Of a DNA stretch of 49,746 nt, positions 10,613-32,144 are shown one piece after another (position 1 is the stretch's first letter; the number at the start of each line of letters is the position of its first letter). The position numbers and the translations under genes are program-made. The stretch comes from Lachnospiraceae bacterium (GTDB lineage Bacteria; Bacillota; Clostridia; Lachnospirales; Lachnospiraceae): NCBI GenBank assembly GCA_016283775.1, contig JAEENL010000142.1, positions 1 to 49,746 of the forward strand, given 5' to 3'. A model generated the notes under the pieces. The model ran no database searches and had not been told where the DNA came from. It saw only the letters and a program-made list of their open reading frames with translations.

Positions 10613-11746
10613 TCAAACTCCTATAATCAAAGAAACAAGTCGGAACGGGACACAGGACCTGTCACCCTCCGTGACCGTGATCTTTACCCGGTGCTTGCCC
10701 GCAGGGCCGTGAAACTTAAGGATACTGATGTCCAGCTTGTCGCCCCAGGTCTCATCAAAATTACCGTCAAGGACCACCGCATTGTCTTCGTCACCGTCCA
10801 CCACCGCAGTCGCGACGCACGCCGGATGCTTTACGTATCTCACGAACTGGGCCGCGATCTCCGTTCCCGTGACTTCAAAAACGGCATAGTCGCCTTTTTC
10901 ATAGCCCGTAAAAGCAGACTGAACGCCATATGGGTCAGAAACGTTGTCTGATGCCACTTTTACGCCCTCCTTGTCTTCGGACGGACATTTTCCCACGTAC
11001 ACCTCTTCCACGCTCTTAAAAATGCGTTCTGCGCGCTCATAGCGGTTCTCTGTGATCGGAGTGGGAAGTATCTCAGATCCCGAAAGTCCGAAACCGTCTC
11101 CGAACCCCCCCGCTGCCGCCTTTTCCATAAATGATGTAAGGAGCTCCGACACCAGCCTGTGTCCCTCGTCATTCGGATGCAGGCCGTCAGGTGTGATGTC
11201 TGCCGCTTTTATCTTTCCGCTCATGATGTCACGATAGATCGATGACTTTCCGGAAACGCAGGGCACATTATAGTGCTTTCCGACCGCAAGATGCTGGTCT
11301 TCCGCGCTTGTACCGTTTGAATACATGATATTGTGAAGGATCATCACCGCGGGCGTGCTCCTCCACTTAAGTATCCTTCTTATAAGGCCCTCATAGGTTT
11401 CTCTGTAAAATGCAGTGTTCTCGTCATTTACGGAAAACTCCGCGACAACAAGGTCGGGATCGGCATACAAAAGATCATTCTCCGCCCTCGCAACGCCGTA
11501 GTGCGACGTTGTTCCTCCGATACCTGCGTTGATATATGTAAACTCCGCTTTCGGATATTTTTCTCCAAGCCATCGCACCGTGCGTGCTGCATAGCATCTT
11601 TCATGCACCGATGCGAGAGAGCCGTTCGTTATCGACCCTCCTATAAATCCCACAGTGAGCTTTTCTCCGGCCTCAGCCCTTTTCAAAAATGAGCGGAGCC
11701 GTGAAACATCTCCTGTGTTGACATAAGCCTCATTGATGTTGTCCAT
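10613..11746 (-). CDS. SGNH/GDSL esterase with C-terminal beta domain (CE17-like acetyl-mannan esterase)
   Basis: The 377-residue protein has an N-terminal SGNH hydrolase domain (about 30-215) and a C-terminal beta-rich domain (about 240-377). The catalytic triad is visible as S38 in GFIGGSIT, and D187 and H190 in DGLHP; block II/III residues are G74/G77 (NAGIGGTT) and N108 (FSVND). There is no signal peptide, so it should act in the cytoplasm after uptake. This SGNH-then-CBM35-like order matches CE17 acetyl-mannan esterases described from Roseburia mannan loci, and it sits at the end of a mannan operon. Removing acetyl groups would let the phosphorylases process oligosaccharides. The CE17 assignment is inference from architecture and context; a different acyl esterase is possible. 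Confidence 0.8.
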   Translation of the reverse strand: MDNINEAYVNTGDVSRLRSFLKRAEAGEKLTVGFIGGSITNGSLASVHERCYAARTVRWLGEKYPKAEFTYINAGIGGTTSHYGVARAENDLLYADPDLVVAEFSVNDENTAFYRETYEGLIRRILKWRSTPAVMILHNIMYSNGTSAEDQHLAVGKHYNVPCVSGKSSIYRDIMSGKIKAADITPDGLHPNDEGHRLVSELLTSFMEKAAAGGFGDGFGLSGSEILPTPITENRYERAERIFKSVEEVYVGKCPSEDKEGVKVASDNVSDPYGVQSAFTGYEKGDYAVFEVTGTEIAAQFVRYVKHPACVATAVVDGDEDNAVVLDGNFDETWGDKLDISILKFHGPAGKHRVKITVTEGDRSCVPFRLVSLIIGV

Positions 11747-11868: not shown

Positions 11869-12894
11869 TTATCTTCTTCCGAGATCGGTATCATCCCATC
11901 TGGTAACGGAATGATCCTTTATGTATTTTACGATCTCATCAAAATAGCAGAATGCGAGACCTACATAGCTGTCTGCGCAGCCATAGTAGATCGCGATCTT
12001 TCCGCTCTCGGGATCGTGGAGCGTTGCGCAAGGGAAGCAAACGTTGGGAACGAAGCCTCTCTCCTCGTACCACTCTGTGGGAGTGAGAAGGAAATTCTCG
12101 CATCTGTAAAGTACCTTTGAAGGCTCGTCGAGGTCAAGGATTGCGCCACCTATGGAATAAACATAGCCGTTGCAGGTCTGTGATACCCCGTGATAGAACA
12201 TGAGCCAGCCCTCGCTTGTCTCAATGGGTGCAGCGCCTCCGCCGATCTTTAAGGACTCCCACCATTCAGAGGAACGTCCCATCACGTGACGGTGCTTGCC
12301 CCAGTAAACAAGGTCGGGGGATTCGGAGATAAAGATATCTCCGAAGGGTGTGTGTCCGCTGTCGGAAGGACGTGAAAGCATCATGTACTTTCCGTTTATC
12401 TTCCTCGGGAACAACACGGCATTTCTGTTGAAAGGAAGGAAAGGATTTTCCAGCCTTGTAAATGTCTTGAAATCGGTGGTCTTTGCGAGACCGATGGCAG
12501 CTCCGTACATATCCTGGCACCACATGATGTAATACGTATCCTCGATCTTTACAAGTCTGGGATCGTATGCATAGATGGGCTGGAAATCTTTGCCGTCCTC
12601 ATCCACGAAATGTATCTTCTCTTCTTCAAACGTCCAATGGATCGCGTCCTTTGAATGTCCGAGATAGATCATCGATACACCGTTTGTCTGCTCGCCTCTG
12701 AAAACACCTATAAATTCGCCGTTATAGGGCATTACCGCAGAATTGAATATTCTGGCAACCTCTTTGGTAGGGTAACGACCGATTATGGGATTGTCGTTAT
12801 AACGCCACACGGGGGCGTGGTTAAACGCCTCCGCGGGCTTTTCCTGCCATGGAATGTTGGGCAACGCCGGGGCGATCATCTTGATATCGCTCAT
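11869..12894 (-). CDS. GH130 beta-1,4-mannooligosaccharide phosphorylase (GH130_2 type)
   Basis: A 341-residue cytoplasmic phosphorylase with the five-bladed GH130 propeller. It should release mannose-1-phosphate from the non-reducing end of beta-1,4-manno-oligosaccharides using inorganic phosphate. The general acid is the aspartate of AYDPRL (D111). FRGEQTNGVS, NRNAVLFPRKINGKYMMLSRPSD and the phosphate-binding region with GGGAAPIETSEGWLMFYHGV are all present. Its length and N-terminus fit the RaMP2-like subfamily, whereas the gene at 29725-30903 fits the mannosylglucose phosphorylase subfamily; a mannan locus commonly carries one of each. It follows the lipoprotein binding-protein gene by 24 nt. 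Subfamily assignment is by reading, not by tree. Confidence 0.9.
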   Translation of the reverse strand: MSDIKMIAPALPNIPWQEKPAEAFNHAPVWRYNDNPIIGRYPTKEVARIFNSAVMPYNGEFIGVFRGEQTNGVSMIYLGHSKDAIHWTFEEEKIHFVDEDGKDFQPIYAYDPRLVKIEDTYYIMWCQDMYGAAIGLAKTTDFKTFTRLENPFLPFNRNAVLFPRKINGKYMMLSRPSDSGHTPFGDIFISESPDLVYWGKHRHVMGRSSEWWESLKIGGGAAPIETSEGWLMFYHGVSQTCNGYVYSIGGAILDLDEPSKVLYRCENFLLTPTEWYEERGFVPNVCFPCATLHDPESGKIAIYYGCADSYVGLAFCYFDEIVKYIKDHSVTRWDDTDLGRR

Positions 12895-12918: not shown

Positions 12919-14442
12919 TTATTTTCCGAATACTGCGTCAAGAGCGTCCTGAACTTCCTGCTTGTGCATCTCCTGAAGCTGAGCGGGAGTTACGGTACCG
13001 TCCATGAGTGACCAGAGGTCATAGTTTACGCCGAGAGAGTTCCAAAGATCCACTGTGGACTTGGAGTTGATCTCGGTCTGAACCTTCCAGTTCTCCTGAC
13101 GGAGCTCGTCCGTCTTTGCGGTAGCATCGATCCACCAGTTGAAGGTAGCGGGATCGTCACGAAGTGTTGTGTCGCCGTCATACCAGTTCCACATATCGTA
13201 AAGAACGTTGAATACTGTAAGAGGATCCTCTACGCCTGCAGGGATGATATAAAGCTCACCGCCGACATTGTTGAGCTGAGGGTCGGTATCCTGATTTCCG
13301 GAAGGACCTACAGGCCAATGGCAGTATGCGATGTCGAAAGGAAGTGTGTATCCGAGAGTGCCGTCCCAGTCATAGTCGGAACCGTTGGTCTGGCTTACCC
13401 AAACGTTGCCCCACCAGAAACCGATGTTACCGTTCCTGTACTTTGTACGAACATCGTTGGAATCCATGTCATAGCTTACAGGTACGCATACGTTGTAAAC
13501 ATTGTACATGTCATACATCTGCTGAAGGACTTCTGTCATAGCGTTGGAAGAAAGGCCTTCGGTTGTAGTGGATGCAATGTTTGCGCCGTTGCTGAGCATA
13601 AGCTCCTCAAAAAGGTCTGAGTCCCATCCGCACCAGCCGTACTGGTCGGTCTGTCCGTCACCGTCGGTATCCTGAGTAAGGACCTGAAGGTACTCGTTGA
13701 ACTTATCCCATGTCCACTCGCCGCGCTCCCAAAGAACTCTGGGATCCTCGAGGTTGTTCTCTTCAAGCATCTGGATATTGAATGCAAGAGGGTTGGTGTT
13801 GTTCATACCGCCCTGACGTCTTAAGATGCAAGCCTTGCCGTCACCGAGATCCAGGAATGTTATAACGGTCTGGGTTGTGAAAAGGTCATGGTCTGCAGGA
13901 AGGATGGTCCTTAAATCCGTACAGAAACCATTTGTCTGTGCAGGGATAGCCATACCTGCATCGGTAAGATAGATATCGCAGTCGGGAGCACCTGCGAGAA
14001 TGGAGGTGTTGATGGATTCCTTAACACCTGCATAGGTGAGGTTTGTCCAGAAGAACTTAAGTCCATATCTCTGCTCGATGGTCTTTACGTTTGCGAATCT
14101 TGCTTCCATCTGTGCGCGGTTAACGGCATTTGATGCCTTTGTGGCATCGTCGTCACCGTCCTTGTCCTGGTTTACTATCCAGTCAGGGCTGTCGGCAAGT
14201 TCATCGTCCGCACTGTCATAGTGCTGAGTCCACCAGGTTCCGATAAGGACGTCCTTTGTCCTCTTCTTGTTTGTATCTGTCTGGCCATTGTTCTGAGCAG
14301 CATCCCCGTTTGCTCCGACGGTTGTCTGCTGCTGGTCACCGTTAGCGAGAACCTGGGGCTGCTTCTGCTCGCCGCATGCTGCAAGACCTACGATCATAGC
14401 GGAAGTAAGAGCGACAGCCAATACTTTCTTAAAATTAAACAT
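12919..14442 (-). CDS. Lipoprotein ABC sugar-binding protein (family 1)
   Basis: An extracellular solute-binding protein of about 507 residues. The start is placed at the ATG at 14442 (MFNFKKVLAVAL): GGAGG lies 11 nt upstream, while the in-frame ATG at 14460 overlaps that ribosome site. The signal peptide ends in a lipobox, GLAAC, with C23 as the lipidated residue, followed by a Gln/Asn/Thr-rich linker. The mature part has the family 1 fold signs (LEENNLEDPRVLWERGEWTWDKFNEYLQVL near the hinge) and is rich in tryptophan and aspartate, as in binding proteins for neutral oligosaccharides. It is 33 nt downstream of the four-repeat lipoprotein and probably serves the permeases at 16860-18783. Manno-oligosaccharide binding is inferred from the locus. 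Confidence 0.88.
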   Translation of the reverse strand: MFNFKKVLAVALTSAMIVGLAACGEQKQPQVLANGDQQQTTVGANGDAAQNNGQTDTNKKRTKDVLIGTWWTQHYDSADDELADSPDWIVNQDKDGDDDATKASNAVNRAQMEARFANVKTIEQRYGLKFFWTNLTYAGVKESINTSILAGAPDCDIYLTDAGMAIPAQTNGFCTDLRTILPADHDLFTTQTVITFLDLGDGKACILRRQGGMNNTNPLAFNIQMLEENNLEDPRVLWERGEWTWDKFNEYLQVLTQDTDGDGQTDQYGWCGWDSDLFEELMLSNGANIASTTTEGLSSNAMTEVLQQMYDMYNVYNVCVPVSYDMDSNDVRTKYRNGNIGFWWGNVWVSQTNGSDYDWDGTLGYTLPFDIAYCHWPVGPSGNQDTDPQLNNVGGELYIIPAGVEDPLTVFNVLYDMWNWYDGDTTLRDDPATFNWWIDATAKTDELRQENWKVQTEINSKSTVDLWNSLGVNYDLWSLMDGTVTPAQLQEMHKQEVQDALDAVFGK

Positions 14443-14475
14443 TTTCTTTAAACCCTCCATATTATTGCTAAACTA

Positions 14476-16821
14476 TTATCTCTGGCCTATTCTTACGCTG
14501 AATACTTCCCAGTTTGTTCTTGCTTCTGCCTGAAGTGTGGTACCCCATGTGGACTTGTCTTCACCGCAAAGCGCAACTATCTGCTCGTAGGTTACAAAGC
14601 ACTTGGAACCGTCCAGCAGGATCGCACCATCGTGTCCGTTTCCGCAGAAATCTCCGTCACCTACACGGCTCCAGCCTACTGCTGCGCCGGGAAGAACGAT
14701 CCAGAGTGTTCCGTCTTCAGATGCGTAGTCAAGTTCGATAACGCTTCCGGGAACAAGTGCGTCGATCACAGCCTGAGGCATATCGAAGCCTGCCTGGCCC
14801 CAGCCGCTGCCTGTTGTTGCAAAACCGTCAAATGCTGTGAACTTGTGAAGTCTGGGAGCTGTGGGAGCTGCTTCGAGAGTTCCTACGCTTACAGAGTATA
14901 CTTCCCAGTTTGTTCTTGCCTCTGCCTGAAGCTGAGGTCCCCATGCGGTCTTGTCTTCGCCGCAGAGTGCAACGATCTGCTCATATGTTACATAGCACTT
15001 GGATTCGCCCACAAGGAGAGCGGGATCATGTCCGTTGCCGCAGAAATCTCCGTCACCCACACGGCTCCAGCCTGCTGTTGCGTTGGGAAGAACGATCCAA
15101 AGGGTTCCGTCCTCGGATGCATAGTTGAGTTCAAGGCATGTTCCGGGAACAAGCGCATCAAGTACGGCCTGAGGGAAGTCAAAACCTGCCTGGCCCCATC
15201 CGCTTCCTGTTGTTGCAAAGCCATCGAAATCAACTGCCTTCTTGTAAACCTTCTCACCAACTTCTTTGAAGGTTCCTACAGATACTGAGAATACTTCCCC
15301 GTTTGTTCTTGCCTCTGCCTGAAGCTGAGGTCCCCATGCAGTCTTGTCTTCGCCGCAAAGTGCAACGATCTGCTCATAGGTTACATAGCATTCGGATTCG
15401 TTTACAAGTGTAGCTGGATCATGTCCGTTTCCGCAGTAGTCTCCGTCGCCTACACGGCTCCAGCCTGCTGCTGCATTAGGAAGAACGATCCAAAGGGTTC
15501 CGTCCTCAGATGCATAGTTGAGTTTCAAAACACTTCCGGGAACAAGTGCGTCAAGAACTTCCTGAGGGAAGTCAAAGCCTGCCTGGCCCCATCCGCTTCC
15601 TGTTGTTGCAAAGCCGTCAAATGCAACAGTCTCGACAAACTCAGTCTCAACGGTGGGAGTTCCTACCTTGATGGAGAATACTTCCCATGCGGAAGAACCT
15701 TCACACTGAATGGTTGCGCCCCATGTGCTCTTGTCCTCACCGCAGATGGCTACAATCTGATCGTAATCGATCTGAGCCACGCCGTTTGAGTTGTTACGAT
15801 ATACTTCATCGTGCTGGTTTCCTGCCCAGTCACTGTCGCCCACACGGCTCCAACCTGCTGCGGCACCGGGGAATACGAACCAGATCTTGCCGTCTTCACT
15901 TGTGTAAGAGATCTCGATCACGGATCCGGGAACAAGTGCATCGATGAATTCCTGAGTCATATCGGCACCGGCCTGTGACCATGCTCCTGCGCTGGGATTG
16001 AATCCGTCAAGCGCTACAGTACCGCCGAGAGTAAGAAGATTCGATCTGTCGGGCTTCTCATCCTTGAAGCCTGCAGGTGCATTGAATGCAACAGCTGTAG
16101 CTGCGGGCTTGATGGTCTTTCCGTTCTTGTCAAGGAATGCGAGATCGTCAACATAAAGTGTTGCCGCACCATGCTCAGTGCCTGCGCCGAGGTCTTCCTT
16201 GAAATAGATGAGGAGAAGCGGAACATCCGCACTGAAAGTCACGCCATCGGGCATTCCTATCGTTGTCGTATAAGGGTTCTTTTTCTGCATATATACCGAC
16301 CAACTGTCATTAGCCATCTTTGACAGATTTGTATCTGTCCAGAAAAGCAACTGGCCGGATGTAGCATTGAAGGAACCGTCTGCATATGTTGTGCCGAGCG
16401 TTGCGGAAACGCTTGCAACATCTGCTGCCTTATCACCGAGAAGGCTGTATACGTCTATAGCGATAACGGGAGTCTTCTTTTCGTCAGCCTTTGTGACCTT
16501 AAGAGCCTTGCTTCCGTTAAACTCGGCTATCTCAAGCTGACTTGCATCCGCTGTGGCAAAATTGTTGAAAACCGCCACAAAATCCATGTTTCCGTCTTCA
16601 AAATCCACGCTGGGATCCACTTTGACAACCGGAACGGGTGTCGATGTGGGCGGCACCGGTGTAGATGTCGCTGTAGGCGTGGGTGTTGCTGTGATTACCG
16701 CCGGTGAGCCGGGTGTAGGTGTAGCCGTTACCGGTGCCGGTGCCTCTCCCCCTTCGCCGCAGGCAGTAAGAGCGAGTACCATTACTGCTGCCATCAAAAG
16801 AGCAAATAACCTTTTTTTCAC
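14476..16821 (-). CDS. Lipoprotein with four tandem ~120-residue repeat domains, putative mannan-capture protein
   Basis: I do not recognise this 781-residue protein as a named family. Residues 1-21 are a lipoprotein signal (LALTAC, C21), then a Thr/Pro linker (31-64). Residues 70-250 form a beta-rich module opening VDFEDG and closing YVDDLAFLD, like many carbohydrate-binding modules. Four repeats follow: 268-387, 398-516, 528-647 and 661-778. Each begins with a DGF-(8)-WGQAG-type start and contains LVPGS, YASEDGTLWIVLP, GWSRVGDGD, TYEQIVALCGEDK and a final EVFSVSVG strand. Repeats 2-4 are nearly identical; repeat 1 is diverged. Repeats 2-4 each have three cysteines at fixed spacing (15 and 11 residues). 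No catalytic signature is seen. Between permease and binding-protein genes of a mannan operon, a multivalent surface glycan-binding role is the best inference. Confidence 0.75.
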   Translation of the reverse strand: MKKRLFALLMAAVMVLALTACGEGGEAPAPVTATPTPGSPAVITATPTPTATSTPVPPTSTPVPVVKVDPSVDFEDGNMDFVAVFNNFATADASQLEIAEFNGSKALKVTKADEKKTPVIAIDVYSLLGDKAADVASVSATLGTTYADGSFNATSGQLLFWTDTNLSKMANDSWSVYMQKKNPYTTTIGMPDGVTFSADVPLLLIYFKEDLGAGTEHGAATLYVDDLAFLDKNGKTIKPAATAVAFNAPAGFKDEKPDRSNLLTLGGTVALDGFNPSAGAWSQAGADMTQEFIDALVPGSVIEISYTSEDGKIWFVFPGAAAGWSRVGDSDWAGNQHDEVYRNNSNGVAQIDYDQIVAICGEDKSTWGATIQCEGSSAWEVFSIKVGTPTVETEFVETVAFDGFATTGSGWGQAGFDFPQEVLDALVPGSVLKLNYASEDGTLWIVLPNAAAGWSRVGDGDYCGNGHDPATLVNESECYVTYEQIVALCGEDKTAWGPQLQAEARTNGEVFSVSVGTFKEVGEKVYKKAVDFDGFATTGSGWGQAGFDFPQAVLDALVPGTCLELNYASEDGTLWIVLPNATAGWSRVGDGDFCGNGHDPALLVGESKCYVTYEQIVALCGEDKTAWGPQLQAEARTNWEVYSVSVGTLEAAPTAPRLHKFTAFDGFATTGSGWGQAGFDMPQAVIDALVPGSVIELDYASEDGTLWIVLPGAAVGWSRVGDGDFCGNGHDGAILLDGSKCFVTYEQIVALCGEDKSTWGTTLQAEARTNWEVFSVRIGQR
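14488..16020 (-). repeat. Four-copy in-frame coding repeat (~393-bp period)
   Basis: Units on the minus strand: 16020-15661, 15630-15274, 15240-14881 and 14841-14488. The last three share long stretches of identical DNA (for example around CCCAGTTTGTTCTTGC, and the segment encoding TLWIVLP), pointing to recent duplication or gene conversion. Copy number may vary between strains. Confidence 0.9.
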
Positions 16822-16859: not shown

Positions 16860-17843
16860 CTATCCGACAATTCCGGATCTTTCAACGCCCTCTATAAAGT
16901 ATTTCTGAAGACTCAGATAAATGATCACCACGGGGACAATGACAAGGATTGCTCCGGCATCACGGTAGAGTTCCTGAAGAGTCAGTGACAGTATCTGATC
17001 TTCATTTGCTATGATACCCTGCAAGCTTGCTATTCTCTTACTGATGACCACATTATCCGGTATCAGAAATAACTTCGCGTAAAATACGTCATTAAACTGC
17101 CATACGATGGAGAATACAGTGACAGTAATGACAGCCGGCATCGCATTTACGAGCATTATGCGAAAATATGTGTAAAACATGCCGGCACCGTCCACAAACG
17201 CAGCCTCTTCGATCTCCTTCGGGAGACCCCTGAAGAACTGGATGAAGATGTAAATGAACAGACCTGATCTTAATCCCGCGCCCAAAAACGTCATAACGTA
17301 CATCGGTATAACGGTGCCCATAAGACCGGGCGTACCGGTGAGCATTTTTCCTATGCCGAACGGGTCAAAGCTTTTGAATGTCATGTACAGCGGAAGCATG
17401 ATCGTGTGAGAAGGTATAACGATCGTAAGGATCACACATCCGAACAGAAGCTTTTTAAGCGGGAATTCAAATCTTGCAAAGCCGTAGCCAACCATTGAGC
17501 AGATAAAAAGCTGCACAAGTGTGATGGTCACCGTGTAGACCAGTGTCCTCACCGCGGTAGTCCAATAATCCAGCCTCTTTATCGCAAGAGCGTATTTCTC
17601 CAGCGTGGGATGGGCCGGAAGAATGAACACCATCGGGTTAAACGCGTCCGCATCGGATTTTATCGAGTTTACGAACATTCCTATGACCGGAGCCAGGATG
17701 ACATAGCTTACGCCGATAAGTATCACATACTTAAAGATCGTAAGAAGTATGTTCTTAAAGTCATTGCCCACGATCCTCATCTGAAGAGGATCATTCACTG
17801 TCTTTTTTATCCTGTCAGACACTTTTTGTATTCTGTCTTTCAT
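16860..17843 (-). CDS. ABC sugar transporter permease (MalG type)
   Basis: A 327-residue inner-membrane permease of the CUT1 class with six predicted helices after an extended cytoplasmic N-terminus (about 45 residues). The EAA loop that contacts the ATPase is at roughly 220-240 (GLPKEIEEAAFVDGAGMFYTYFRI). It follows the MalF-type partner by 16 nt, and together they form one channel. No ATP-binding subunit is encoded nearby, so a shared MsmK/UgpC-type ATPase elsewhere is expected. Substrate is inferred from the locus to be a manno-oligosaccharide. The four-repeat lipoprotein gene is 38 nt downstream. Confidence 0.92.
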   Translation of the reverse strand: MKDRIQKVSDRIKKTVNDPLQMRIVGNDFKNILLTIFKYVILIGVSYVILAPVIGMFVNSIKSDADAFNPMVFILPAHPTLEKYALAIKRLDYWTTAVRTLVYTVTITLVQLFICSMVGYGFARFEFPLKKLLFGCVILTIVIPSHTIMLPLYMTFKSFDPFGIGKMLTGTPGLMGTVIPMYVMTFLGAGLRSGLFIYIFIQFFRGLPKEIEEAAFVDGAGMFYTYFRIMLVNAMPAVITVTVFSIVWQFNDVFYAKLFLIPDNVVISKRIASLQGIIANEDQILSLTLQELYRDAGAILVIVPVVIIYLSLQKYFIEGVERSGIVG

Positions 17844-17859
17844 TGAATGTCCTCCTTTC

Positions 17860-18783
17860 TCAGTTGTAATAGAATGTGCGTCTCTGTATCAGCACAACGA
17901 TGATCGCAAGTATCGAACACGTGACAACCGAGCTCACTATCGAAAATACCGAACTGAGTCCGTAGTTAAACTCCGAAAGAGCCGTCGTGTAAGCAAGATC
18001 GACCACTTCACTGTTTGTAAAGCTGTCTACGATGGTATAAACAACGTTTGTTATGATGTGCGGCATCACCATCGGGAATGTTACTTTCCAAAAGGTCTCG
18101 TATGCCGTTGCACCCTCTATCTTTGCAACCTCGTACATTGACGAAGGTATCGACTGCAGAGCCGCGATGAAAATGATTATCTGTATGCCGGAGGCCTTGA
18201 TGATGTCATTTATCCGCCCGACCGCCGATGACAGGTACTCAAGCACCGAGGACGGTATGCCGAGATTTATGAACATGTCTACGAGATACTCGATGTCAAA
18301 AGCAAGTTCACTGGTTCCGCCGGACACCTCCGCAGTTGTCGCCGAGATACCGCCGTTCATCATCGTTTCGGCAAGATCCATCATAGCGGCAATGGCACCG
18401 GAATTAAGGATGACAGGCAGGAAGAATATCGCCCTGAACACCGCTCTTCCCGGGAACTTCTTGTTCAGAAGCATCGCCATGAAAAGACTAAAGAAAGTGA
18501 TAAGCGGAACATCTATCAGCATGTTCCCGATGGATGTCGTGAGAATCTGCTTGAACGATCCGTGTTCACGGAACGCATACACAAAGTTTTTAAGTCCCAC
18601 ATACTCCAGCGAATAGCCGCCGACATTTGCATCGACCGTAAGCTTTGAAAGGCTGAACTGTCCGGTAAGGATTATGGATCTTACGTAAAATATCGCAAAT
18701 CCTACAAACCACGGCATGATAAAGATGTAACCCATTATCATCCTTTTAGTTGAAAGGGAAAGTTTACGTTTTTTCTTCTTCAT
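17860..18783 (-). CDS. ABC sugar transporter permease (MalF type)
   Basis: A 307-residue CUT1 permease with a basic cytoplasmic start (KKKKRKLSLSTKR) and six predicted membrane helices. The EAA loop reads SIPSSMYEVAKIEGATAYETF (around 210-230). The segment between helices 3 and 4 holds a longer than usual extracytoplasmic loop with GGISATTAEVSGGTSELAFD. It is directly abutted to the DUF5696 gene (stop and start adjacent), suggesting translational coupling, and pairs with the MalG-type permease downstream. Confidence 0.92.
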   Translation of the reverse strand: MKKKKRKLSLSTKRMIMGYIFIMPWFVGFAIFYVRSIILTGQFSLSKLTVDANVGGYSLEYVGLKNFVYAFREHGSFKQILTTSIGNMLIDVPLITFFSLFMAMLLNKKFPGRAVFRAIFFLPVILNSGAIAAMMDLAETMMNGGISATTAEVSGGTSELAFDIEYLVDMFINLGIPSSVLEYLSSAVGRINDIIKASGIQIIIFIAALQSIPSSMYEVAKIEGATAYETFWKVTFPMVMPHIITNVVYTIVDSFTNSEVVDLAYTTALSEFNYGLSSVFSIVSSVVTCSILAIIVVLIQRRTFYYN

Positions 18784-21141
18784 TTATTTCCCCTCCAGTC
18801 TGTAAGACTCGGCTTCTATCGTGATACCGTCCATGACCGCGGGCTCATCTCCGTAGTTTACGTAAATAGTCACGCCGTTGTCATAGGTGACGGCCCTTGC
18901 TTCGCCCTCAATCCTGTGGTCCACGATCAGAGCACCTTCGACGTTCCTTAAGACCTCATTCACATATCTGTAAGCCTCGACCGCCTCATCCGCATACACA
19001 TCAAAGGTCGTAGCGTAAAACCTGCTTAAGCCCGTGTTTTTCATAAGGCTCGACTCTTTTTCCGTGAACTGGTAGTGCGGAGCCGTGCCTGTCTCTATGA
19101 GTTCAAGAAGGTCATGACGCGAACTGTAGCTGTCGCGGTAGTTGAGCAGCTTTGAGGAATAGTCGATGCAGCCGTGGATCACCATCTGGTAGAGCGGGAT
19201 GGATCCATCACAGATAAAGAACTCGTTGTCGCCTGTGGGAACGTTGATCATATCCTGTGTATACGGGAATGCGTATGCATTTGCGGAATCAATCAGGATC
19301 GGCTTCCCGATGTCCTTTATGATATCAAGCTGTCCCAGCACCACATTCAGCGCCTGTTCCCTGTCGATGAGGTTTGTCCTCTTTTTGTCCGACTGAAGCG
19401 TGTTACCAAGGTCTCTTAAGGAAATGCCGTAAAGGTCGTATTTTCCGATCTTTTTCGCAAATTTCTCAATATATCTCGGAAGGAATCTCGGGGAAAGAAG
19501 ATCATATCTGGTCTCCATATATCCGAGCGATGCCGTGTTTCTGAGCGTTGTGGGATCGTTCTGTCCGAATGCCGCAACGTAGCCCGCTCCATAATAACGT
19601 GAAGATTCCGCGTTGTAGTTGAAATGATTGTCCGCAAAGGTCACCTTCTGGAACGCGACGTCACCGTAAAGCCTGCCGCCCAGTTCGTTCAGGGTACTGT
19701 TGAGATCTGCGAGTCCCGACTTTCCGCCGAGTTTTCCGACCACGCGGATCTTGTCGGCGGTATCGTGATAGTATCCTTCGTTGAACCACCCCTGGAGGTT
19801 CATGACCTGATTGGAGATCCCCTTGTCCTTAAGCGTCTTTGCTATGCCCGCTGCTCCCTTGAAATCGGTCATCGTGAACACATGCAGATATCCAACGCCG
19901 AGGAAGTGTCCTGTTTCTTTTACGCCTGCGATGATGTCGTAGTAAAAGGGGATATCCCCGCTCCTGCCGTTAGGCTTCAGCGCGCCCTTTGCCATCAGCT
20001 TTTCCCTGTAGTAATTTGCGATACCGGGATAGCCTTTGTATTCATCGGTGAGGAACGAATACCTTACCTGAAGGTTCAGGTCGTAGAGATTGTCCTCCAT
20101 GATGGGTGTGTCACCCTTGGAATTTCCGAACATGGAGAGGTTGTCGGTATTCCTTACGACAAAGGTTGTATATGCGTAGTTGTAGTCGTTGTATACGCCG
20201 GAAATGTTTGCCGTGATCGTTGCTGTCGTCGCGCCGCCTTCAACGGTTGCAAGCACGCTCCTGTCCTTGTAGCAGAGCCCGTAGATCGGAAGCTTTGCAT
20301 CGTCGGTCTCTTCGATCGTGGTGTAGTTGGCGACCAAAGGATCGATGCCGTAGATATACTGCGAATACTGCTGGGCGCTCGTCTTTCCGTTGTTGAAGTT
20401 GATGATCGCGCCGGAACCGTTTGGAACGACCATGTAGCCCTCATCATCATAACTTGATGCCGCCATATAGCGGAGAAGCTGTATCCTGTAGATAAATCCG
20501 GGTCCGTGCTCCTCTATCCCTTTTACCGGGATGCTCACTACGACCGAATCACCGTCAAGCCTGTATTCAAGCGGGATAACGAACCATGTCAGATCTTCTT
20601 TTCCGATGTTCTGAGGTTCACCCACGGAATAAACATAGCGGATGCCGTTGTTTATCCCTTCCCACTTGTACTGCTTTGTCTGAACGCTCTTGCTGAACGA
20701 ATCGATGTTTGCGGATGCGACTGTGGTATTGTAATACTGCAGGATGAACTGCGACTTCAGGTAGTTTTTGTTTGCCGCCTTTGCCGTCTTGTCCTGGTCC
20801 GCGTTCAAGGGATTTGTGTAGCTTATCGAGCCGTTCCTCTTGTCATATACGGCCACATTGCAGGTCGCGGTATCGGTGTAGAGTTTCAGGTATTCGTTTT
20901 CCGTGACCAGTTTAAATCCCGGAACATCGGGGTTTGCTTCGCTCTTGAATGTGAGCTCCGTGCCCTGTTCATACTCATAGTCGGTCACATATTTCTTGTG
21001 GCCGTCATAAAACTTAAATCTGACAAGGTAGTAAACAATATAGATCACACCCACTGCAGCCGCGACGATCAGCGCCGCGAGCAGTATCCTGTGAGCCAGA
21101 CTCATAGGGAGTCTGACACTTTTTTCTTTCTTGCCTTTCAT
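18784..21141 (-). CDS. DUF5696-family membrane-anchored protein
   Basis: A 785-residue protein with a short basic tail, one N-terminal membrane helix (about 17-40) and a large extracytoplasmic part. Residues about 60-370 look beta-rich (mutarotase-like sandwich by pattern); about 395-670 alternate strands and helices in a TIM-barrel-like way (for example PFYYDIIAGVKET, GISNQVMNLQGW, KPILIDSANAYAFPY); 735-785 forms a last beta unit with VTYDNGVTIYVNYGDEP. This resembles the layout of some glycoside hydrolases, but I cannot name catalytic residues, and the family is of unknown function. It is encoded between Yip1 (9 nt upstream) and a permease (0 nt downstream), so it probably belongs to the uptake machinery. 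Confidence 0.75.
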   Translation of the reverse strand: MKGKKEKSVRLPMSLAHRILLAALIVAAAVGVIYIVYYLVRFKFYDGHKKYVTDYEYEQGTELTFKSEANPDVPGFKLVTENEYLKLYTDTATCNVAVYDKRNGSISYTNPLNADQDKTAKAANKNYLKSQFILQYYNTTVASANIDSFSKSVQTKQYKWEGINNGIRYVYSVGEPQNIGKEDLTWFVIPLEYRLDGDSVVVSIPVKGIEEHGPGFIYRIQLLRYMAASSYDDEGYMVVPNGSGAIINFNNGKTSAQQYSQYIYGIDPLVANYTTIEETDDAKLPIYGLCYKDRSVLATVEGGATTATITANISGVYNDYNYAYTTFVVRNTDNLSMFGNSKGDTPIMEDNLYDLNLQVRYSFLTDEYKGYPGIANYYREKLMAKGALKPNGRSGDIPFYYDIIAGVKETGHFLGVGYLHVFTMTDFKGAAGIAKTLKDKGISNQVMNLQGWFNEGYYHDTADKIRVVGKLGGKSGLADLNSTLNELGGRLYGDVAFQKVTFADNHFNYNAESSRYYGAGYVAAFGQNDPTTLRNTASLGYMETRYDLLSPRFLPRYIEKFAKKIGKYDLYGISLRDLGNTLQSDKKRTNLIDREQALNVVLGQLDIIKDIGKPILIDSANAYAFPYTQDMINVPTGDNEFFICDGSIPLYQMVIHGCIDYSSKLLNYRDSYSSRHDLLELIETGTAPHYQFTEKESSLMKNTGLSRFYATTFDVYADEAVEAYRYVNEVLRNVEGALIVDHRIEGEARAVTYDNGVTIYVNYGDEPAVMDGITIEAESYRLEGK

Positions 21142-21150: not shown

Positions 21151-21783
21151 TTATGTTCTGAATATCACTTCGGTATAAACACTGTGGATGAAATTGTAGA
21201 CCTTACCGATAAGGTTGCTGAGCAAAAGTATGATGAACACTATGATCAGCATTGCAAGGAAGGTGAGTATCAATGTTCCCAGAGTCTTTCCGACCGAGAA
21301 ATTGTGCACCTGCATGATGCCTATGATGATCATGATCACGCCCCATGCTATGCACACGCCCAGTATGATCGAATAGAACGCCTGTTCCTTGTCGGCAACA
21401 AAGCGACTTACGATGGTCGAAACGATAAAGCCTATGGTTATGGGCATCGTGCCGTAGCCTACCGCAGTGAGGATGTCCTTCATTCGGCCCTCACCGCCCA
21501 TGAGGCAGGTGACAGACCAGTTGCTCACGCACAGCAAAATGTAAAACGCGATGACGCCCAAAAGCTCGTAAAGCGAATCTACGGCTCTCGGATCGATATC
21601 ATTTACCACAAAGCCCGCAAGCAGACGGTTTGCCGAAAAGCTCGCGCTGAAAAGTATCACAAGGATGAACGCGATCGGAAGACTTCCTCGGTCCCCATGT
21701 CTTATCCAGTAAAATCCGTCAACGGGATGAGTCAGTGTGTAAAGGAGGTAGCTCCACTTGTCTTTTGAAAAAGCTTTAGTCAT
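21151..21783 (-). CDS. Yip1-family integral membrane protein
   Basis: A 210-residue protein with about five hydrophobic helices and the Yip1 pattern: HPVDGFYWIRHGDRGSLPIAFILV at the start, then GGEGRMKDILTAVGYGTMPITIGFIVS. The start is set at the ATG at 21783 (MTKAFSKDKW), which has an AAAGGGGG ribosome site 9 nt upstream; a longer in-frame ATG at 21822 lies inside the NHL gene. It overlaps the end of the NHL gene by 8 nt. Bacterial Yip1 proteins have no settled function. The tight coupling to NHL and DUF5696 genes suggests a membrane partner of that complex. Confidence 0.8.
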   Translation of the reverse strand: MTKAFSKDKWSYLLYTLTHPVDGFYWIRHGDRGSLPIAFILVILFSASFSANRLLAGFVVNDIDPRAVDSLYELLGVIAFYILLCVSNWSVTCLMGGEGRMKDILTAVGYGTMPITIGFIVSTIVSRFVADKEQAFYSIILGVCIAWGVIMIIIGIMQVHNFSVGKTLGTLILTFLAMLIIVFIILLLSNLIGKVYNFIHSVYTEVIFRT

Positions 21784-23266
21784 TGTCAAGCGCCCCCTTT
21801 CTCTTTTTCCGTATCCTGCCAAATACCACCGCTGCCGCTATGAGTACCGCAACGCCCGAAAGGAACCAGCTGGCGTTGTTTTTCAGTATCTCGTTTCTGT
21901 AACGCTTGAATGCGATGGAATAATATTCACGGTTCATACCGAGCTTCAGGTATTTCATGGCGTTTTCGTAATCGCCTCCGGAAAGATAAGCCTTTCCGAT
22001 ACCTGTATTTGCAAGCTCGTTGTTTTCATCAAGCTCAAGCACTCTCTGCCAGATGTCCACAGCTTCCGTCTCATCTCCGTCAAACCGGAGCGCTACGGCT
22101 TTGTTGATGCAGTCGCCGTATTCGGTGACCTTAAAGGAAATGATGGTACCGGCCGTTGCATCAAGCACACAGATGCGGTCGCCCAGTTCCTCGATGGCAA
22201 CAGGCATTTGGAAGGTTCCTGCCTGCGTGCCGAGTCCTCCGAAGATGTAGAGCAGGTTTCCTTCGTGATCGTAAGTGAATATCCTTCCGCGCTTGCGGTC
22301 AAGGCAGGAATAGATACCGTTTTTCCTGTAGACCACATCCGTAAACTGCGAAGGTCCGTAATATGCTCCGAGTCCGCTTATCTGCAGGTCACCGCCGAGG
22401 TTTTTGTTCTGTCCCTTTTTGATGACGTCCTGTCCGCTGGGATTTAAGCGTCTCACGCCCTGTATGCCGTCACTCGTGATGTTTGTCGCATAGATGAAGC
22501 CCTCGGGATCGACATCGATGCCCGTGAACTCCGTGGGGATAAAGAGCTTCTGGTTTGCTCTCTCTTCCTTTGTCGCGATCCTTCTCCAGAACTTTTCCCA
22601 GACTGAGATGTCTACGGAAATGGTCCCGAAGAAGCCTGTGAACTGTCCGTCGGTCTCAAATACCATGATGCCTTCAAACATGTTCTGCGCGATGACATAG
22701 ACACGATCGGCGTAGTCAACGGCCACTTTGTAAGGAGTGAAGACAAAGCCCGCGTCGAGAGATCTGGACTTCGGATCCGACACGATCTGGATCAGGTTGT
22801 ATTCCGGATCGAGCACCACCACTCTCTTGTTCTTTGAGTCGGCGATGTAGATGTTTCCTTTTTCCGAAACGCACACACCGTAAGGCTGGTTCAGTTTGTC
22901 CTCTTTTCCGTTGTTGTCAAAGGAAGTGATGATGTTCACCACATTCTTGAGCTTTGAGTCGAGGATCACCACTCTGTTGTTTCCGGTGTCTGCTATGAGT
23001 ACTTCACCCGAAGGCGATTTGCACATGTCCTGCGGAGTCTTGAAGTTCCCTATGGACTCTCCGTTGTAGACAAACTCTTTTCCGTAACGAAGTCCGTCGG
23101 GAATGTACGCCGCTGGAGTGAAATGAATGTATTCTCTGTAGTCGTAATTGTATGTGTCGTAAGGAACGTCGTCAGCCTTTGCGACTGTCGCGGCCTGCCC
23201 GCTCACCAGCAGAAGGATCGCAGACAGGAGGGCTGTTACGCGTATCAATTTATTCATTTTTCTCAT
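21776..23266 (-). CDS. NHL-repeat beta-propeller protein with TPR segment and C-terminal membrane anchor
   Basis: A 496-residue exported protein. Signal peptide at 1-31 (VSGQAATVAKA). NHL blades run from about 70 to 385: MCKSPSGEVLIADTGNNRVVILD, VCVSEKGNIYIADSKNKRVVVLD, IDVDPEGFIYATN and further degenerate blades. Residues about 395-455 look like two TPR units (EAVDIWQRVLELDENNELANTGIGKAYLSGGDYENAMKYL split across the two). A membrane helix (about 467-484) and a basic tail (RIRKKRK) anchor it with the propeller outside. A binding or scaffold role is likely; no active site is evident. It is 28 nt downstream of the permease gene and overlaps yip1. Confidence 0.82.
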   Translation of the reverse strand: MRKMNKLIRVTALLSAILLLVSGQAATVAKADDVPYDTYNYDYREYIHFTPAAYIPDGLRYGKEFVYNGESIGNFKTPQDMCKSPSGEVLIADTGNNRVVILDSKLKNVVNIITSFDNNGKEDKLNQPYGVCVSEKGNIYIADSKNKRVVVLDPEYNLIQIVSDPKSRSLDAGFVFTPYKVAVDYADRVYVIAQNMFEGIMVFETDGQFTGFFGTISVDISVWEKFWRRIATKEERANQKLFIPTEFTGIDVDPEGFIYATNITSDGIQGVRRLNPSGQDVIKKGQNKNLGGDLQISGLGAYYGPSQFTDVVYRKNGIYSCLDRKRGRIFTYDHEGNLLYIFGGLGTQAGTFQMPVAIEELGDRICVLDATAGTIISFKVTEYGDCINKAVALRFDGDETEAVDIWQRVLELDENNELANTGIGKAYLSGGDYENAMKYLKLGMNREYYSIAFKRYRNEILKNNASWFLSGVAVLIAAAVVFGRIRKKRKGALDND

Positions 23267-23294: not shown

Positions 23295-24200
23295 TCAATC
23301 CTTCATACCAGATGTGGTCATGGTCTCCAGTACGTTCTTCTGACAGATCAGGAAGAATGTGATGGGAACCGCGGCGACGATGAAGGTTACCGCCGCACCC
23401 GCGCCCGCTCTTGCCGCGCCGCCCGCTGCGATCTGGTTTAAGGAATACTGCAGGGGCTTCAACTGCTCGTCACGAAGGAAGGTGCTTCCGGTGTTGCCCC
23501 ACATCTGCTGGAACTGGAAGATCGCCAGAGTCAGCCATGCGGGTTTTACGTTGGGCATCACTATCGACCAGAAAATCCTGTATTCACTGGCGCCGTCGAG
23601 CCTTGCGGATTCCATGAGGGAATCGGGGATCTGCTCCATGAACTGCTTCATGAGGTAGAGCCCCATACCGAAGGAACATGCGGGAAGTATGAGTGCCCAG
23701 TATGAGTTGTTTATGTGCAGCCATGAGATGATCATGTACTGCGGCGTCTGGGTTACCTGCCATGAGAACATCATGGACATTACAACAAACGCAAAGAGGA
23801 TCTTTTTCCCGGGGAAATCATGCTTTGCAAGCGGATAAGCAGCCATGGAAGCTATGATAACGTGCCCTATCATACCGCCGCCCGTGATGATCACGGTGTT
23901 CAGCATGTATCTTGAAAAAGGCACCCAGGAATCATTTACCAGTACAAAGAGGTCCGAGAAATTCTCCAGGGTTGGGTTTCTCACAAAGATCTTGGGCGGG
24001 AACTGGAAAAGTTCGTCAAGGGGCTTCAGGCAGTTGTTGATGATCATTACCAGAGGCATTACCATCGCAACTCCGCAGAGAGCCATGATGAAGAAAAGTA
24101 TCGCGTTTCCGGCCGCAGAACGGTTGAGTTTTTTCTCGCGCCGTTTAAAGATACCGAGTATCTTTCCGGTCTTTTTCTTTTTAATCTTTTTGCTCATCAT
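23295..24200 (-). CDS. ABC sugar transporter permease (MalG type)
   Basis: A 301-residue CUT1 permease with a strongly basic N-terminal tail (KKIKKKKTGK...RREKK), six predicted helices and an EAA loop QIPDSLMESARLDGASEYRIF (around 200-220). Its ATG overlaps the stop of the MalF-type gene by 4 nt (ATGA), showing a coupled pair. This pair lies next to the giant CBM-fused binding protein and presumably works with it. No ATPase gene is adjacent. Confidence 0.92.
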   Translation of the reverse strand: MMSKKIKKKKTGKILGIFKRREKKLNRSAAGNAILFFIMALCGVAMVMPLVMIINNCLKPLDELFQFPPKIFVRNPTLENFSDLFVLVNDSWVPFSRYMLNTVIITGGGMIGHVIIASMAAYPLAKHDFPGKKILFAFVVMSMMFSWQVTQTPQYMIISWLHINNSYWALILPACSFGMGLYLMKQFMEQIPDSLMESARLDGASEYRIFWSIVMPNVKPAWLTLAIFQFQQMWGNTGSTFLRDEQLKPLQYSLNQIAAGGAARAGAGAAVTFIVAAVPITFFLICQKNVLETMTTSGMKD

Positions 24201-25150
24201 GCACCAACCCTTCCCAGAAGCTTCTGAACAAGTTTATTGGTGCCTACCATGAGCAGGAACAGCACTGTTGCTATCGCTGAAGCGTAGCCCATCTCAAAAC
24301 GCACGGTACCGTAGTCGAGAAGGTGTGTGACAACGGTCGCGCCGGCGTAGTTTACCGAAGGGTTTCCGGCGAGAGCTATCGAAACGTCGCAGATCGCGAA
24401 GGACGATGTTATCTGCATTACCGCGCCGAAAAGGAGCTGGGGCTTCATGGAAGGAAGTGTGACATACCACAGTTCCTGCCAGCGGTTCTTGATGCCGTCG
24501 AGCGCCGCCGCCTCGTACAAGGTCTTGTCTACCGTCTGGAGACCTGCGATGAATGAAAGGAAACCGGTTCCAAGTGACAGCCAGAGCTGAACGATCACAA
24601 GTATCGGAAGCACGTATTTCTCCGTTTTCATCCACTGCACTGCTTCATCGAGGATGCCGAGTTTCAAAAGGATACCGTTTAAATAGCCGTATCTGTCGCC
24701 CGAAAGGATGAGGTTCCATACAACGTACGCGTTACCGCATATCGAGGGCGCGTAGAATATCAAAGTGAGGAAGGCTCTGAGCCATCCGGTGAACTCGTTG
24801 ATGATCCATGCGAAAAGGAGGCACAGGATATAGGATACGGGGCCTGTGATGACCGCGAGGATCAGCGTGTTCTTTAAGGAGATCAGGAAAATGTCGTCCT
24901 CAAGGAAAAGCTTGATGTAGTTTCTCCAGCCTATGAACTGCGGAAGTTCCAGCATGTTGTAATAGGTGAAGCTTAAGCCCATCGACATGGCGACGGGAAT
25001 GATGGTAAAAAACGTAAACAGGATGAAGTAAGGAGCGAGCATCACGTAGCTTGCCCTGTTCTTCTTTAAGCGGTAGGAAAGCTTGTTCTGCTGCGACGCT
25101 ATGATGTATGCACTGTTTTCGTTTTGTGCGGTGTTCTTCTTGTCCGACAA
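24197..25150 (-). CDS. ABC sugar transporter permease (MalF type)
   Basis: A 317-residue CUT1 permease with six predicted helices after a 30-residue polar N-terminus. The EAA loop is TVDKTLYEAAALDGIKNRW (about 216-234). It begins 15 nt after the binding-protein stop and overlaps the partner permease by 4 nt. Together with the 994-residue binding protein it forms the first of two importers in this locus. Confidence 0.92.
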   Translation of the reverse strand: MSDKKNTAQNENSAYIIASQQNKLSYRLKKNRASYVMLAPYFILFTFFTIIPVAMSMGLSFTYYNMLELPQFIGWRNYIKLFLEDDIFLISLKNTLILAVITGPVSYILCLLFAWIINEFTGWLRAFLTLIFYAPSICGNAYVVWNLILSGDRYGYLNGILLKLGILDEAVQWMKTEKYVLPILVIVQLWLSLGTGFLSFIAGLQTVDKTLYEAAALDGIKNRWQELWYVTLPSMKPQLLFGAVMQITSSFAICDVSIALAGNPSVNYAGATVVTHLLDYGTVRFEMGYASAIATVLFLLMVGTNKLVQKLLGRVGA

Positions 25151-25165
25151 GGCTTTTCCTCCTTT

Positions 25166-28153: not shown

Positions 28154-29713
28154 CTACTCCATGGGATATTTCTTCAGATCAGGTATTTCATCAAGTGTTA
28201 TCACCGTATCGCTGTCATAGGCTTTTTTCATCATATAGCCTTCCGTATACTGCTCTGAGAGTTTGATGAAGGAAGCACGCTTTACAAATTCACCCTGCCA
28301 AACGCAAAACTCGCCCCACATTGCGCCGTCTCTCACGGCAAGCTCGGGATCGAAGATGCATCCGCATTCCGAAAGGTAAACGGGCTTTTGCTTTTCCGAC
28401 CATCCCGCGACTTCAAAATATTTGGAAGCCTGCGAGGTGTAAACACGTTCGCCGGGATATATGTCGATGCCGAGGATGTCACAGTATTCGTCTCCGGGGT
28501 ACCAGTCCTTATCCTGACCGTTCCACAGCCAGATGAGATTGTTGAGCTTGTACTCATCCGTGAACATCTCGTACATCATGATGTACAGCTTTTTGTATGC
28601 TTCGGCTCCCGATGCGCCCCACCAGAACCATCCACCGCTCGCTTCGTGGAGCGGTCTGAAAAGGATCGGTATGTCGGCTTCCGCAAGTGGTTTCAAGGTT
28701 TCCGCCATGTTGCGCATGTCGGTGACCAGCATCTCATAGCCTGCGGGATCACTGCCGTTCAACGCTTTTTCAAGGTTAAAATTTGTGGATTCGGTATAAA
28801 ATGTCGAATACCAAGCCTTCGTCGTATACTTTTCCGCCGTCGTCCAGTGCCAGTGGAATTCGAGTATGCCGCCTCTTTCGTCCCAGGCTTTCGCATATTC
28901 TATGGTCTTTCCGTCTTTTCCGCCGTCCGGGCGGGAAGATGTATAATTCATGAGGTCCATGGAAAGCACTGCGGGATATTTTCCGGTGGTGTCATGTACG
29001 ACACGGATCTCCGCTCCGAGTCCGCCGTCATCGCAGACCTGTCCGGAAAGTATGTTCTTGCCGTAAATATCAACAAGATAGCTGAAAAGCCTCTTTGTGT
29101 TCTCGCTTGCGTTTTTGTTGCAAAGGACTTTGTCGATCATGTAGATCTCCTGATCTATTGGCTTTGATGTGACAAGTTCAAGATAGTCAAGGCGTATCCA
29201 GCCCCAGGATTTAGTGACCATTATCTCATGCTGCCCTTCGGAAAGGTATGCTCTCTTTACCACAGCATCCGCGGGGGTGGTGTCACTGATGTATATCTCT
29301 CCGATACGCTCGCCGTCAAGGCTCACGAAATTGGTCTTTTCTCCGCCCATGCTGCTGAGCCTGAAAACGAGATCGTAGAACCCGTCTTTTTCGATGTCAA
29401 CCTTAAAGGTGCAGGTGTCTTCGTCACCTTCAAAGCCTTCGGCGTATCCCGAGTTTGAAAAATCCTGTTTTCCTGTTGATGCATGGACCTTTCCGGTAAA
29501 TGCCGCATCCTCCGCTTCGTAATGCCCTACCGTTTCAGGAACAAAGGGCGTAGGCGTGGGTGTCGGCGTTGATGTCTGTTTCGGTGTCTCCTGTGCGGGA
29601 GATGCGGCAGGCGTCGGTGTCGGCCCGATTTTATTTTCTGCGCATCCTGCAAGAGATGCCGCAATAAGTGTCGTCATTGTGAGCATTGCAAGAGTCTTTC
29701 GATATTTCCGCAT
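28154..29713 (-). CDS. Lipoprotein CBM35-GH26 endo-beta-1,4-mannanase
   Basis: A 519-residue surface enzyme. The signal peptide ends in LAGC (C24), followed by a Thr/Pro linker (31-57), a CBM35-like module (about 62-182: HYEAEDAAF ... CTFKVDIEKDGFYDLVFRLS ... GWIRLDYLELV) and a GH26 barrel (about 190-505). The catalytic acid/base is E357 in FRPLHEASGGWFWWG and the nucleophile is E449 in YLSECG. The conserved WHW (288-290) is also present. It should cut the beta-1,4-mannan backbone into oligosaccharides for import. The gene is 3 nt upstream of the CBM-fused binding protein and 11 nt downstream of GH130_1. A GH26 with lichenase activity is possible, but the neighbours favour mannan. Confidence 0.93.
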   Translation of the reverse strand: MRKYRKTLAMLTMTTLIAASLAGCAENKIGPTPTPAASPAQETPKQTSTPTPTPTPFVPETVGHYEAEDAAFTGKVHASTGKQDFSNSGYAEGFEGDEDTCTFKVDIEKDGFYDLVFRLSSMGGEKTNFVSLDGERIGEIYISDTTPADAVVKRAYLSEGQHEIMVTKSWGWIRLDYLELVTSKPIDQEIYMIDKVLCNKNASENTKRLFSYLVDIYGKNILSGQVCDDGGLGAEIRVVHDTTGKYPAVLSMDLMNYTSSRPDGGKDGKTIEYAKAWDERGGILEFHWHWTTAEKYTTKAWYSTFYTESTNFNLEKALNGSDPAGYEMLVTDMRNMAETLKPLAEADIPILFRPLHEASGGWFWWGASGAEAYKKLYIMMYEMFTDEYKLNNLIWLWNGQDKDWYPGDEYCDILGIDIYPGERVYTSQASKYFEVAGWSEKQKPVYLSECGCIFDPELAVRDGAMWGEFCVWQGEFVKRASFIKLSEQYTEGYMMKKAYDSDTVITLDEIPDLKKYPME

Positions 29714-29724: not shown

Positions 29725-30903
29725 TTATTTCTCTGTCATCAGCGCCTTGAGGTTCTTTTCGATAAGGCTTACGCGCTGTTTTACGCAGTCCGGCGAACGG
29801 AGCGCGTCGGACGGAGTGTTGAATACATAATCCTTAAGTCTCTCTATGTCGGTCGAGGCCACATGGAGCCTGGTATCGCTTGATGCATAGTATATATAGA
29901 TTTTTCCGTCATCATCCGCGATCGCTCCGTTTGTGAAGGTCACGTTTGAAACGTCTCCCACACGTTCCGCCCCTCTCGGCCCTATCAGGAGTCCGCCGGG
30001 TTCCGCGATCACTTTCGAAGGATCGTCAAGCGCTGTCGCAAAAGCGTAGATAACGTATCTCAGTCCGGCAGCGGTATTTCTCACACCGTGCGCGATGTGT
30101 ATCCAGCCGCGGTCTGTCTTTATCGGAACCGCGCCTGCACCGTTCTTGACCTCGGTAATGGTGTGGTATTTTCTCAACGATGTCATCTTTTCTTCATCGA
30201 TGACGGCATGTGTGATATCGTCGCAAAGCCCGAAGCCTATGCCGCCGCCCGAGCCGGTTTCGATGAAATCGTCCATGGGTCTTGTGTAAAAAGCGTATTT
30301 TCCGTTCACAAACTCGGGATGGAGCACCACATTTCTCTGCTGAGGGGAATGAAGTGTCACAAGGTTCGGAAGCCTCTCCCATGTCATAAGATCTTTGGTC
30401 CTTACGATCCCCGCGGCAGCGACCGCAGCGGAAAGGTCGGGATTTGTCCTGTCCTTGCTCTCGGAGCAGAACACACCGTATATCCAGCCGTCCTCGTGCT
30501 GAGTGACCCTCATGTCATAAACATTTGTCTCTTCCGGGCAGGTATCCGGAAGGAGCACCGGGCAGTCGCGGAATCTGAAGCCCTCCGTGGGGCTTTCGCT
30601 CTCGGCCACCGCAAAAAAGGATTTTCTGTCGGCGCCCTCCACGCGTGCGATCAGCATGTACTTTCCGTCAAGTTTTATGGCTCCGGAGTTCATCACGGCG
30701 TTTATGCCGAGGCGCTCCATAAAATACGGATTTGTCTCTTTTTCAATGTCATAACGCCATATGACCGGCGCATGCTCTCTTGTGAGAACGGGATAAGTCC
30801 AGCGCTCGTAGATGCCGTTGTAAAAATTCTCATCCACCTGATTTTTGCGGTTTATGAGCTTTTCCTGTTTTTCCTGTTCCACATAGTATCTTTCATGGAT
30901 CAT
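29725..30903 (-). CDS. GH130 4-O-beta-D-mannosyl-D-glucose phosphorylase (GH130_1 type)
   Basis: A 392-residue cytoplasmic phosphorylase that should split mannosyl-glucose (Man-beta-1,4-Glc) into mannose-1-phosphate and glucose. It is about 50 residues longer than the other GH130 here, with the extended N-terminal helix ([14 protein letters not shown]) of the mannosylglucose phosphorylase subfamily. The general acid is D130 in VYDMRV, almost the same position as in characterised enzymes of that group. Other GH130 marks are [39 protein letters not shown] and [13 protein letters not shown]. It overlaps the upstream epimerase gene by 4 nt (ATGA), which suits the two enzymes acting in sequence on mannobiose. 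Confidence 0.93.
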
Positions 30904-32069: not shown

Positions 32070-32144
32070 GTTTTCGTTCCTCCTCCGAAAACGATTAAGT
32101 AACGTCGTGTGAGGACCCCTCTTTTCGACTTTCGTCATACCACG

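Follow-up and report, generated by a model that had tools for sequence, protein, structure and literature searches.

A putative surface glycan-binding lipoprotein with four predicted CBM65 repeats in a Lachnospiraceae beta-mannan operon

The lipoprotein gene and its operon

We analyzed a 49,746-nucleotide stretch of Lachnospiraceae DNA (contig JAEENL010000142.1), hereafter called the window, and focused on a minus-strand lipoprotein gene within it (Table 1). The original prediction had read from the letters a lipobox with its cysteine at position 21, a Thr/Pro linker, one beta-rich module and four repeats of about 120 residues with a period of about 131. This layout was recovered in the 781-aa reading frame: the LTAC motif lies at that site, the linker runs to about residue 66, and the four repeats are about 123 aa long with anchors spaced 130, 131 and 132 aa apart. 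The repeats had also been called nearly identical from the second onward, which fits repeats 2 and 3 (86% amino acid and 87% nucleotide identity) but is loose for repeat 4 (78% and 81–82% with either of them). Repeat 1 is 50–57% identical to the other three in amino acids and 65–66% in nucleotides. Each repeat scored 219–242 bits against the repeat profile, a likeness far above chance.

The lipoprotein carries a lipid anchor motif and no recognizable catalytic domain, CBM65 being its sole credible Pfam match. The secondary Pfam matches HTH_36 and DUF7374 and the NCBIfam matches were rejected as score inflation caused by near-identical repeats or by signal and linker composition. Opposite-strand reading frames overlapping the gene (e.g., 14632–15288) were taken as antisense shadows, not genes.

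The gene belongs to a minus-strand run extending from 32138 to 10613, in which the spacing of neighboring genes is −4 to 38 bp with two exceptions. The esterase gene is preceded by 122 bp, and a Yip1-domain gene is encoded in the 634 bp separating the DUF5696 and NHL/TPR genes. This run is a beta-mannan operon. GH26-CBM35, two types of GH130, an epimerase and a GDSL esterase all lie in it, which bears out the earlier placement of the lipoprotein inside a mannan locus. For the downstream GH130, the top PDB match was TM1225, a protein without a name, and the 5ayd-type phosphorylase was among the next named relatives. The closest PDB entry to the esterase, 6hfz, is annotated only as a "GDSL-like protein"; we take it to be the Roseburia intestinalis CE17 mannan esterase. 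The relationship of the window esterase to 6hfz suggests an acetylated substrate, and together with the two GH130 types it assigns the operon to (acetylated) glucomannan. SBP1, the solute-binding lipoprotein encoded next to the array gene, is a distant relative of an arabino-oligosaccharide-binding protein.

Two further observations concern the surroundings. The first ~600 residues of the 994-aa solute-binding protein of the second importer gave no Pfam match, and its orthologues are of similar length (996–1003 aa in operons L037 and L054). A gene for a Cthe_2159-type carbohydrate-binding protein lies just outside the operon.

Table 1. Positions of the lipoprotein, its parts and the neighboring genes in the window
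Feature	Coordinates	Strand	Remarks
Mannobiose/cellobiose 2-epimerase-like enzyme	30900..32138	minus	
GH130	29725..30903	minus	best PDB relative 4-O-beta-D-mannosyl-D-glucose phosphorylase (E 3.6e-191)
GH26 with CBM35	28154..29713	minus	predicted beta-mannanase
Second importer (perm2b, perm2a, 994-aa solute-binding protein)	23295..28150	minus	solute-binding protein at 25166-28150
NHL/TPR-type protein	21776..23266	minus	
Yip1-domain membrane protein	21151..21822	minus	in the 634-bp DUF5696–NHL/TPR interval
DUF5696 protein	18784..21141	minus	
ABC permeases perm1a and perm1b	16860..18783	minus	perm1a 17860-18783, perm1b 16860-17843; directly upstream of the lipoprotein
CBM65-array lipoprotein gene	14476..16821	minus	781 aa; GTG start; AAGGAGG upstream
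Signal peptide and lipobox	16759..16821	minus	LTAC, lipidated C21 (from sequence)
Thr/Pro-rich linker	16624..16758	minus	aa 22-66
N-terminal module, beta-rich	16036..16623	minus	aa 67-262 (approximate); no Pfam match
CBM65 repeat 1	15655..16026	minus	aa 266-389
CBM65 repeat 2	15268..15636	minus	aa 396-518
CBM65 repeat 3	14875..15243	minus	aa 527-649
CBM65 repeat 4	14479..14847	minus	aa 659-781
SBP1, solute-binding lipoprotein	12919..14460	minus	directly downstream of the array gene; 15-bp gap
GH130	11869..12894	minus	named PDB relative beta-1,4-mannooligosaccharide phosphorylase (5ayd, E 3.1e-117)
GDSL acetyl esterase	10613..11746	minus	closest PDB entry 6hfz
Cthe_2159-type carbohydrate-binding protein	33415-35574		outside the operon

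CBM65 assignment and distribution of the repeats

An hmmscan search of Pfam matched CBM65_1 (PF18259) to all four repeats (E 1.8e-81, 270 bits, cut-off 25). CBM65 is familiar from a few GH5 cellulases, where it binds xyloglucan and beta-glucan. In the genome search, each window repeat scored 67.7–80.5 bits on its own against the same cut-off, and repeats of other lipoproteins reached 107 bits. An AlphaFold model of repeat 2, built with 15 homologous repeats (pLDDT 73.6), ranked six CBM65 entries of EcCel5A from Eubacterium cellulosolvens in places 1–6, with Z 8.1–9.2 and rmsd 2.8–3.0 over 102–106 residues. The next fold, chains of Bacteroides ovatus SGBP-B, followed at Z 6.4. The lead of CBM65 is thus 1.7–2.8 Z units, a Z near 8–9 being modest by itself, and Foldseek likewise placed the CBM65 entry 5afe on top, albeit at E 0.0099. 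By Pfam profile and predicted fold, the lipoprotein repeats are assigned to CBM65.

This assignment displaces the central claim of the original prediction, namely a previously undescribed CBM-like family whose motif fits no known one; the identity had been missed because a profile search was needed to see it, while the proposed fold search of a single repeat led to CBM65 as well. The case for a new family would draw on the 10–14% identity of repeat 2 to the solved Ec CBM65s in structural alignment and on PDB searches that returned no CBM65 chain, whether queried with one sequence or with a profile of the four repeats. The latter result reflects divergence only, and CBM65 chains do appear when an enzyme CBM65 (from genome G084) is the query. 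Set against four separate Pfam matches, the still higher scores of related lipoproteins and the leading fold rank, a family distinct from CBM65 is very improbable, and we rejected it on profile and fold unless CAZy were to split CBM65.

Among 397 Lachnospiraceae genomes, 28 encode CBM65, and in 21 of these it occurs on this lipoprotein, which carries 61 of the 75 CBM65 domain matches listed. The remaining matches fall on other proteins, some of them GH5-type enzymes, or on further reading frames. Genome G000 illustrates such an enzyme: it encodes what appears by eye to be a GH5-type enzyme whose C-terminal CBM65 match is weak, at 24.8 bits (G000:C65:18633-18935; L044).

We fetched 34 other operons for comparison with the window. 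All 34 have the lipoprotein gene in the slot between perm1b and SBP1, although in three of them (L087, L097 and L106) unassigned reading frames of at least 330 aa, all on the other strand, are also listed between these two genes. A GH130 gene falls within the fetched stretch in 26 of the 34, and GH26 is often present. Lipobox and low-complexity linker are present in every listed lipoprotein. Three CBM65 repeats are found in most of them, four in the window and in L006, and five in L041. The 1019-aa lipoprotein of L088 (G331) continues beyond its three CBM65 repeats for ~380 aa, which contain at least two more repeats of another type (ITFADANWWTQKDLT... / VTFADTSWWTERELT...).

Co-occurrence was examined in 60 genomes of the family. 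A GH26 match was found in 9 of 10 genomes with the N-module lipoprotein and in 3 of 50 without it (p=1.4e-7). When the genus of the window was collapsed to one, the counts were 5/6 and 3/48 (p=1e-4), phylogeny being otherwise uncorrected. Genome G008 encodes the lipoprotein but yielded no GH26 match. In the same 60-genome sample of relatives, all 10 genomes with a close DUF5696 relative also have the lipoprotein. The lipoprotein is a conserved, non-enzymatic part of the mannan-uptake operon in Lachnospiraceae.

DUF5696 and NHL/TPR genes accompany both importers in nearly all fetched operons, and the ~600-bp interval between them, occupied by the Yip1 gene in the window, is conserved. No description of DUF5696 was found in the open-licence papers searched.

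The binding-site signature and the probable ligand

Binding-site residues were compared in an alignment of 96 lipoprotein repeats and seven enzyme CBM65s. We inferred the Ec residue numbers from the offset of the PDB chains (index + 36), using fragments of the Ec sequences; this offset puts Trp and Gln where PMC4954948 names them. Multiple sequence alignment demonstrated that the tryptophans at Ec W60 and W108 are each kept in 95 of the 96 lipoprotein repeats, including all four of the window, and in all seven enzyme CBM65s. A Gln two residues past the first Trp (91/96) and a lipoprotein-specific Trp, W49, in the motif L-W-I/V (93/96) are nearly as constant. Ec Q110 is replaced by Arg in 91 of 96 repeats and by Lys in the non-Ec enzyme CBM65s, and Ec W55, W99 and Q106 are not kept in the lipoprotein repeats. 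The window repeats have P or T at W55, A or V at Q106 and R at Q110. The resulting lipoprotein signature is W-x-Q, LW and W-x-R. In a phylogenetic tree, a branch with low support (32) separates the CBM65s of lipoproteins from those of enzymes, and one repeat, L106_R2, falls nearest the enzyme modules.

W55, Q106 and Q110 mark the specificity of EcCBM65 and do not define the family, because the Ruminococcus albus CBM65 (Ra2535), which lacks W55 and Q106 and has Lys at Q110, still binds glucans (PMC4954948). What the Ec modules bind is therefore no safe guide to the specificity of the lipoprotein repeats, and xyloglucan specificity cannot be assumed for modules that have this signature and are missing W55 and Q106. 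The changes at W55, Q106 and Q110 leave it uncertain how strongly the repeats would bind a particular glycan.

The ligands of the characterized CBM65s are beta-glucans and xyloglucan (PMC4954948, PMC10992016). EcCBM65A/B bind xyloglucan with about tenfold higher affinity than linear beta-glucan (PMC10992016), and the R. albus module binds cellulose, xyloglucan and lichenin strongly but mannan and konjac glucomannan weakly (PMC4954948). These preferences speak against mannan capture and raise the alternative that the array binds beta-glucan, xyloglucan or cellulose and anchors the cell to the plant wall, where mannan is embedded, acting through proximity. The altered Ec positions argue against this, W49 suggests a remodeled site, and those glycan enzymes that can be recognized in the operon are of mannan-active types; we consider the alternative rather unlikely. 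The gene context instead points to mannan as the ligand. The array would bind a plant polysaccharide with a beta-1,4-linked backbone. The most probable candidates are glucomannan and acetylated galactoglucomannan, with mannose as well as glucose in the chain.

The N-terminal module, the proposed role and known systems

The N-terminal module is the only unclassified part of the lipoprotein, and it had been mentioned but not singled out in the original prediction. Profile search gave it no Pfam match. It occurs in 28 of the 397 genomes, as a single copy in each of the 28, and in every fetched case it is located in this operon. Its AlphaFold model, built from five rows, is of low confidence (pLDDT 58), and the nearest structures are beta-sandwich CBMs and related domains, among them CBM27, CBM22, CBM4, CBM11 and a mannanase CBM, tied at Z 8.7–10.3. 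With such tied neighbors at this pLDDT no CBM family was named, and the module is described, with low confidence, as a CBM-like beta-sandwich.

The module is kept in two operons whose array consists of unrelated repeats. In a congener (L056:2768-5125; G001:C66), the same slot encodes the N-module followed by four near-identical repeats of 126–131 aa (KVEATYAGDWSSTKAIPAAYF...), which gave no credible Pfam match and for which hhalign found no relation to CBM65 or to the N-module, the profile from four near-identical copies being weak. In the other operon (L102:7242-8900, minus strand; G354:C10), a DUF5620 pair takes the place of CBM65. That the module stays the same while the array is exchanged suggests that it acts as an adaptor or docking element, or that it provides an unchanging site for mannan. 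More tentatively, and with clear doubt, the N-module may found a family of its own that is so far unclassified. In this view it would be an adaptor (or a module binding mannan) specific to this operon, and would couple exchangeable tandem CBM arrays, mostly CBM65 and elsewhere the DUF5620 pair or the unmatched fourfold repeat, to the mannan ABC importer. The result would be a Gram-positive equivalent of the SGBP/SusD scaffold known from Bacteroidota.

The invariant slot between perm1b and SBP1, retained even where the array differs, and the exclusive association of the N-module with this operon in the sample would also fit an accessory importer subunit that captures oligosaccharides and hands them to SBP1 with no tethering of polymer. 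Polymers are, against this, the usual targets of tandem CBM arrays, and we regard such a subunit as quite unlikely.

Our preferred reading, to which we assign a probability of roughly 0.65, is that the lipoprotein is a putative surface glycan-binding protein of the beta-mannan operon that holds beta-mannan or glucomannan near the importer. The lipid anchor, the lack of a recognizable catalytic domain and the conserved slot beside the importer, all read from sequence, are consistent with such capture. Four CBM65 sites would provide avidity, the N-module would orient or dock the array, and polymer would be retained at the membrane for GH26 to cut beside the importers. For a lipoprotein in a Gram-positive wall, large polymers may be beyond reach, and it may act only on fragments. 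The earlier picture of a multivalent CBM lipoprotein thus survives, on operon and CBM65 match, as a predicted surface-anchored, non-catalytic, multivalent protein linked to mannan import, but without the new family. The lipoprotein is a candidate for mannan holding by Gram-positive gut and rumen bacteria whose mannanase lacks CBM27 and CBM23.

The nearest structural reference is the EcCel5A CBM65 (4afm, 4afd, 4aem, 4ba6, 5afe, 2ypj), which shares CBM65_1, the predicted fold, W60 and W108 with the window repeats; these differ from it in the positions described above and in the extra conserved Trp. In EcCel5A the modules flank GH5 cellulase domains, whereas the window encodes a stand-alone, lipid-anchored tandem array without an enzyme. 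Ra2535 (PMC4954948) resembles the window repeats in its divergence and its basic residue at Q110 and has a wide specificity, but is a single module on a GH5 enzyme. In the sampled Lachnospiraceae, most CBM65 domains belong to a non-catalytic lipoprotein encoded in a mannan-importer operon and have a different binding-site signature, which makes the specificity of the family a testable question. The family itself is known, but no CBM65 lipoprotein in this architecture and gene context was found described in the open-licence papers searched.

The MULL/MULS system of R. intestinalis (PMC6385246) also serves beta-mannan use in a member of the Lachnospiraceae and includes GH26, two GH130 enzymes, an epimerase, esterases and an ABC importer. 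There, polymer is captured by CBM27 and CBM23 on the RiGH26 mannanase, whereas in the window a separate non-catalytic polypeptide would do so, and the components named in the accessible text include no separate CBM lipoprotein, DUF5696 protein, NHL protein or second importer. CBM27, CBM22, CBM4 and CBM11 are tied fold neighbors of the low-confidence N-module model but gave no sequence match to the module. SGBP-B of the B. ovatus MLGUL (6e57, 6e9b) is also a multi-domain, non-catalytic glycan binder of a utilization locus, and one of its domains supplied the next fold match to repeat 2. Bacteroidota SGBPs belong to the outer-membrane SusC/D system, and no common sequence family with the window lipoprotein was shown; by analogy, they are its functional counterpart.
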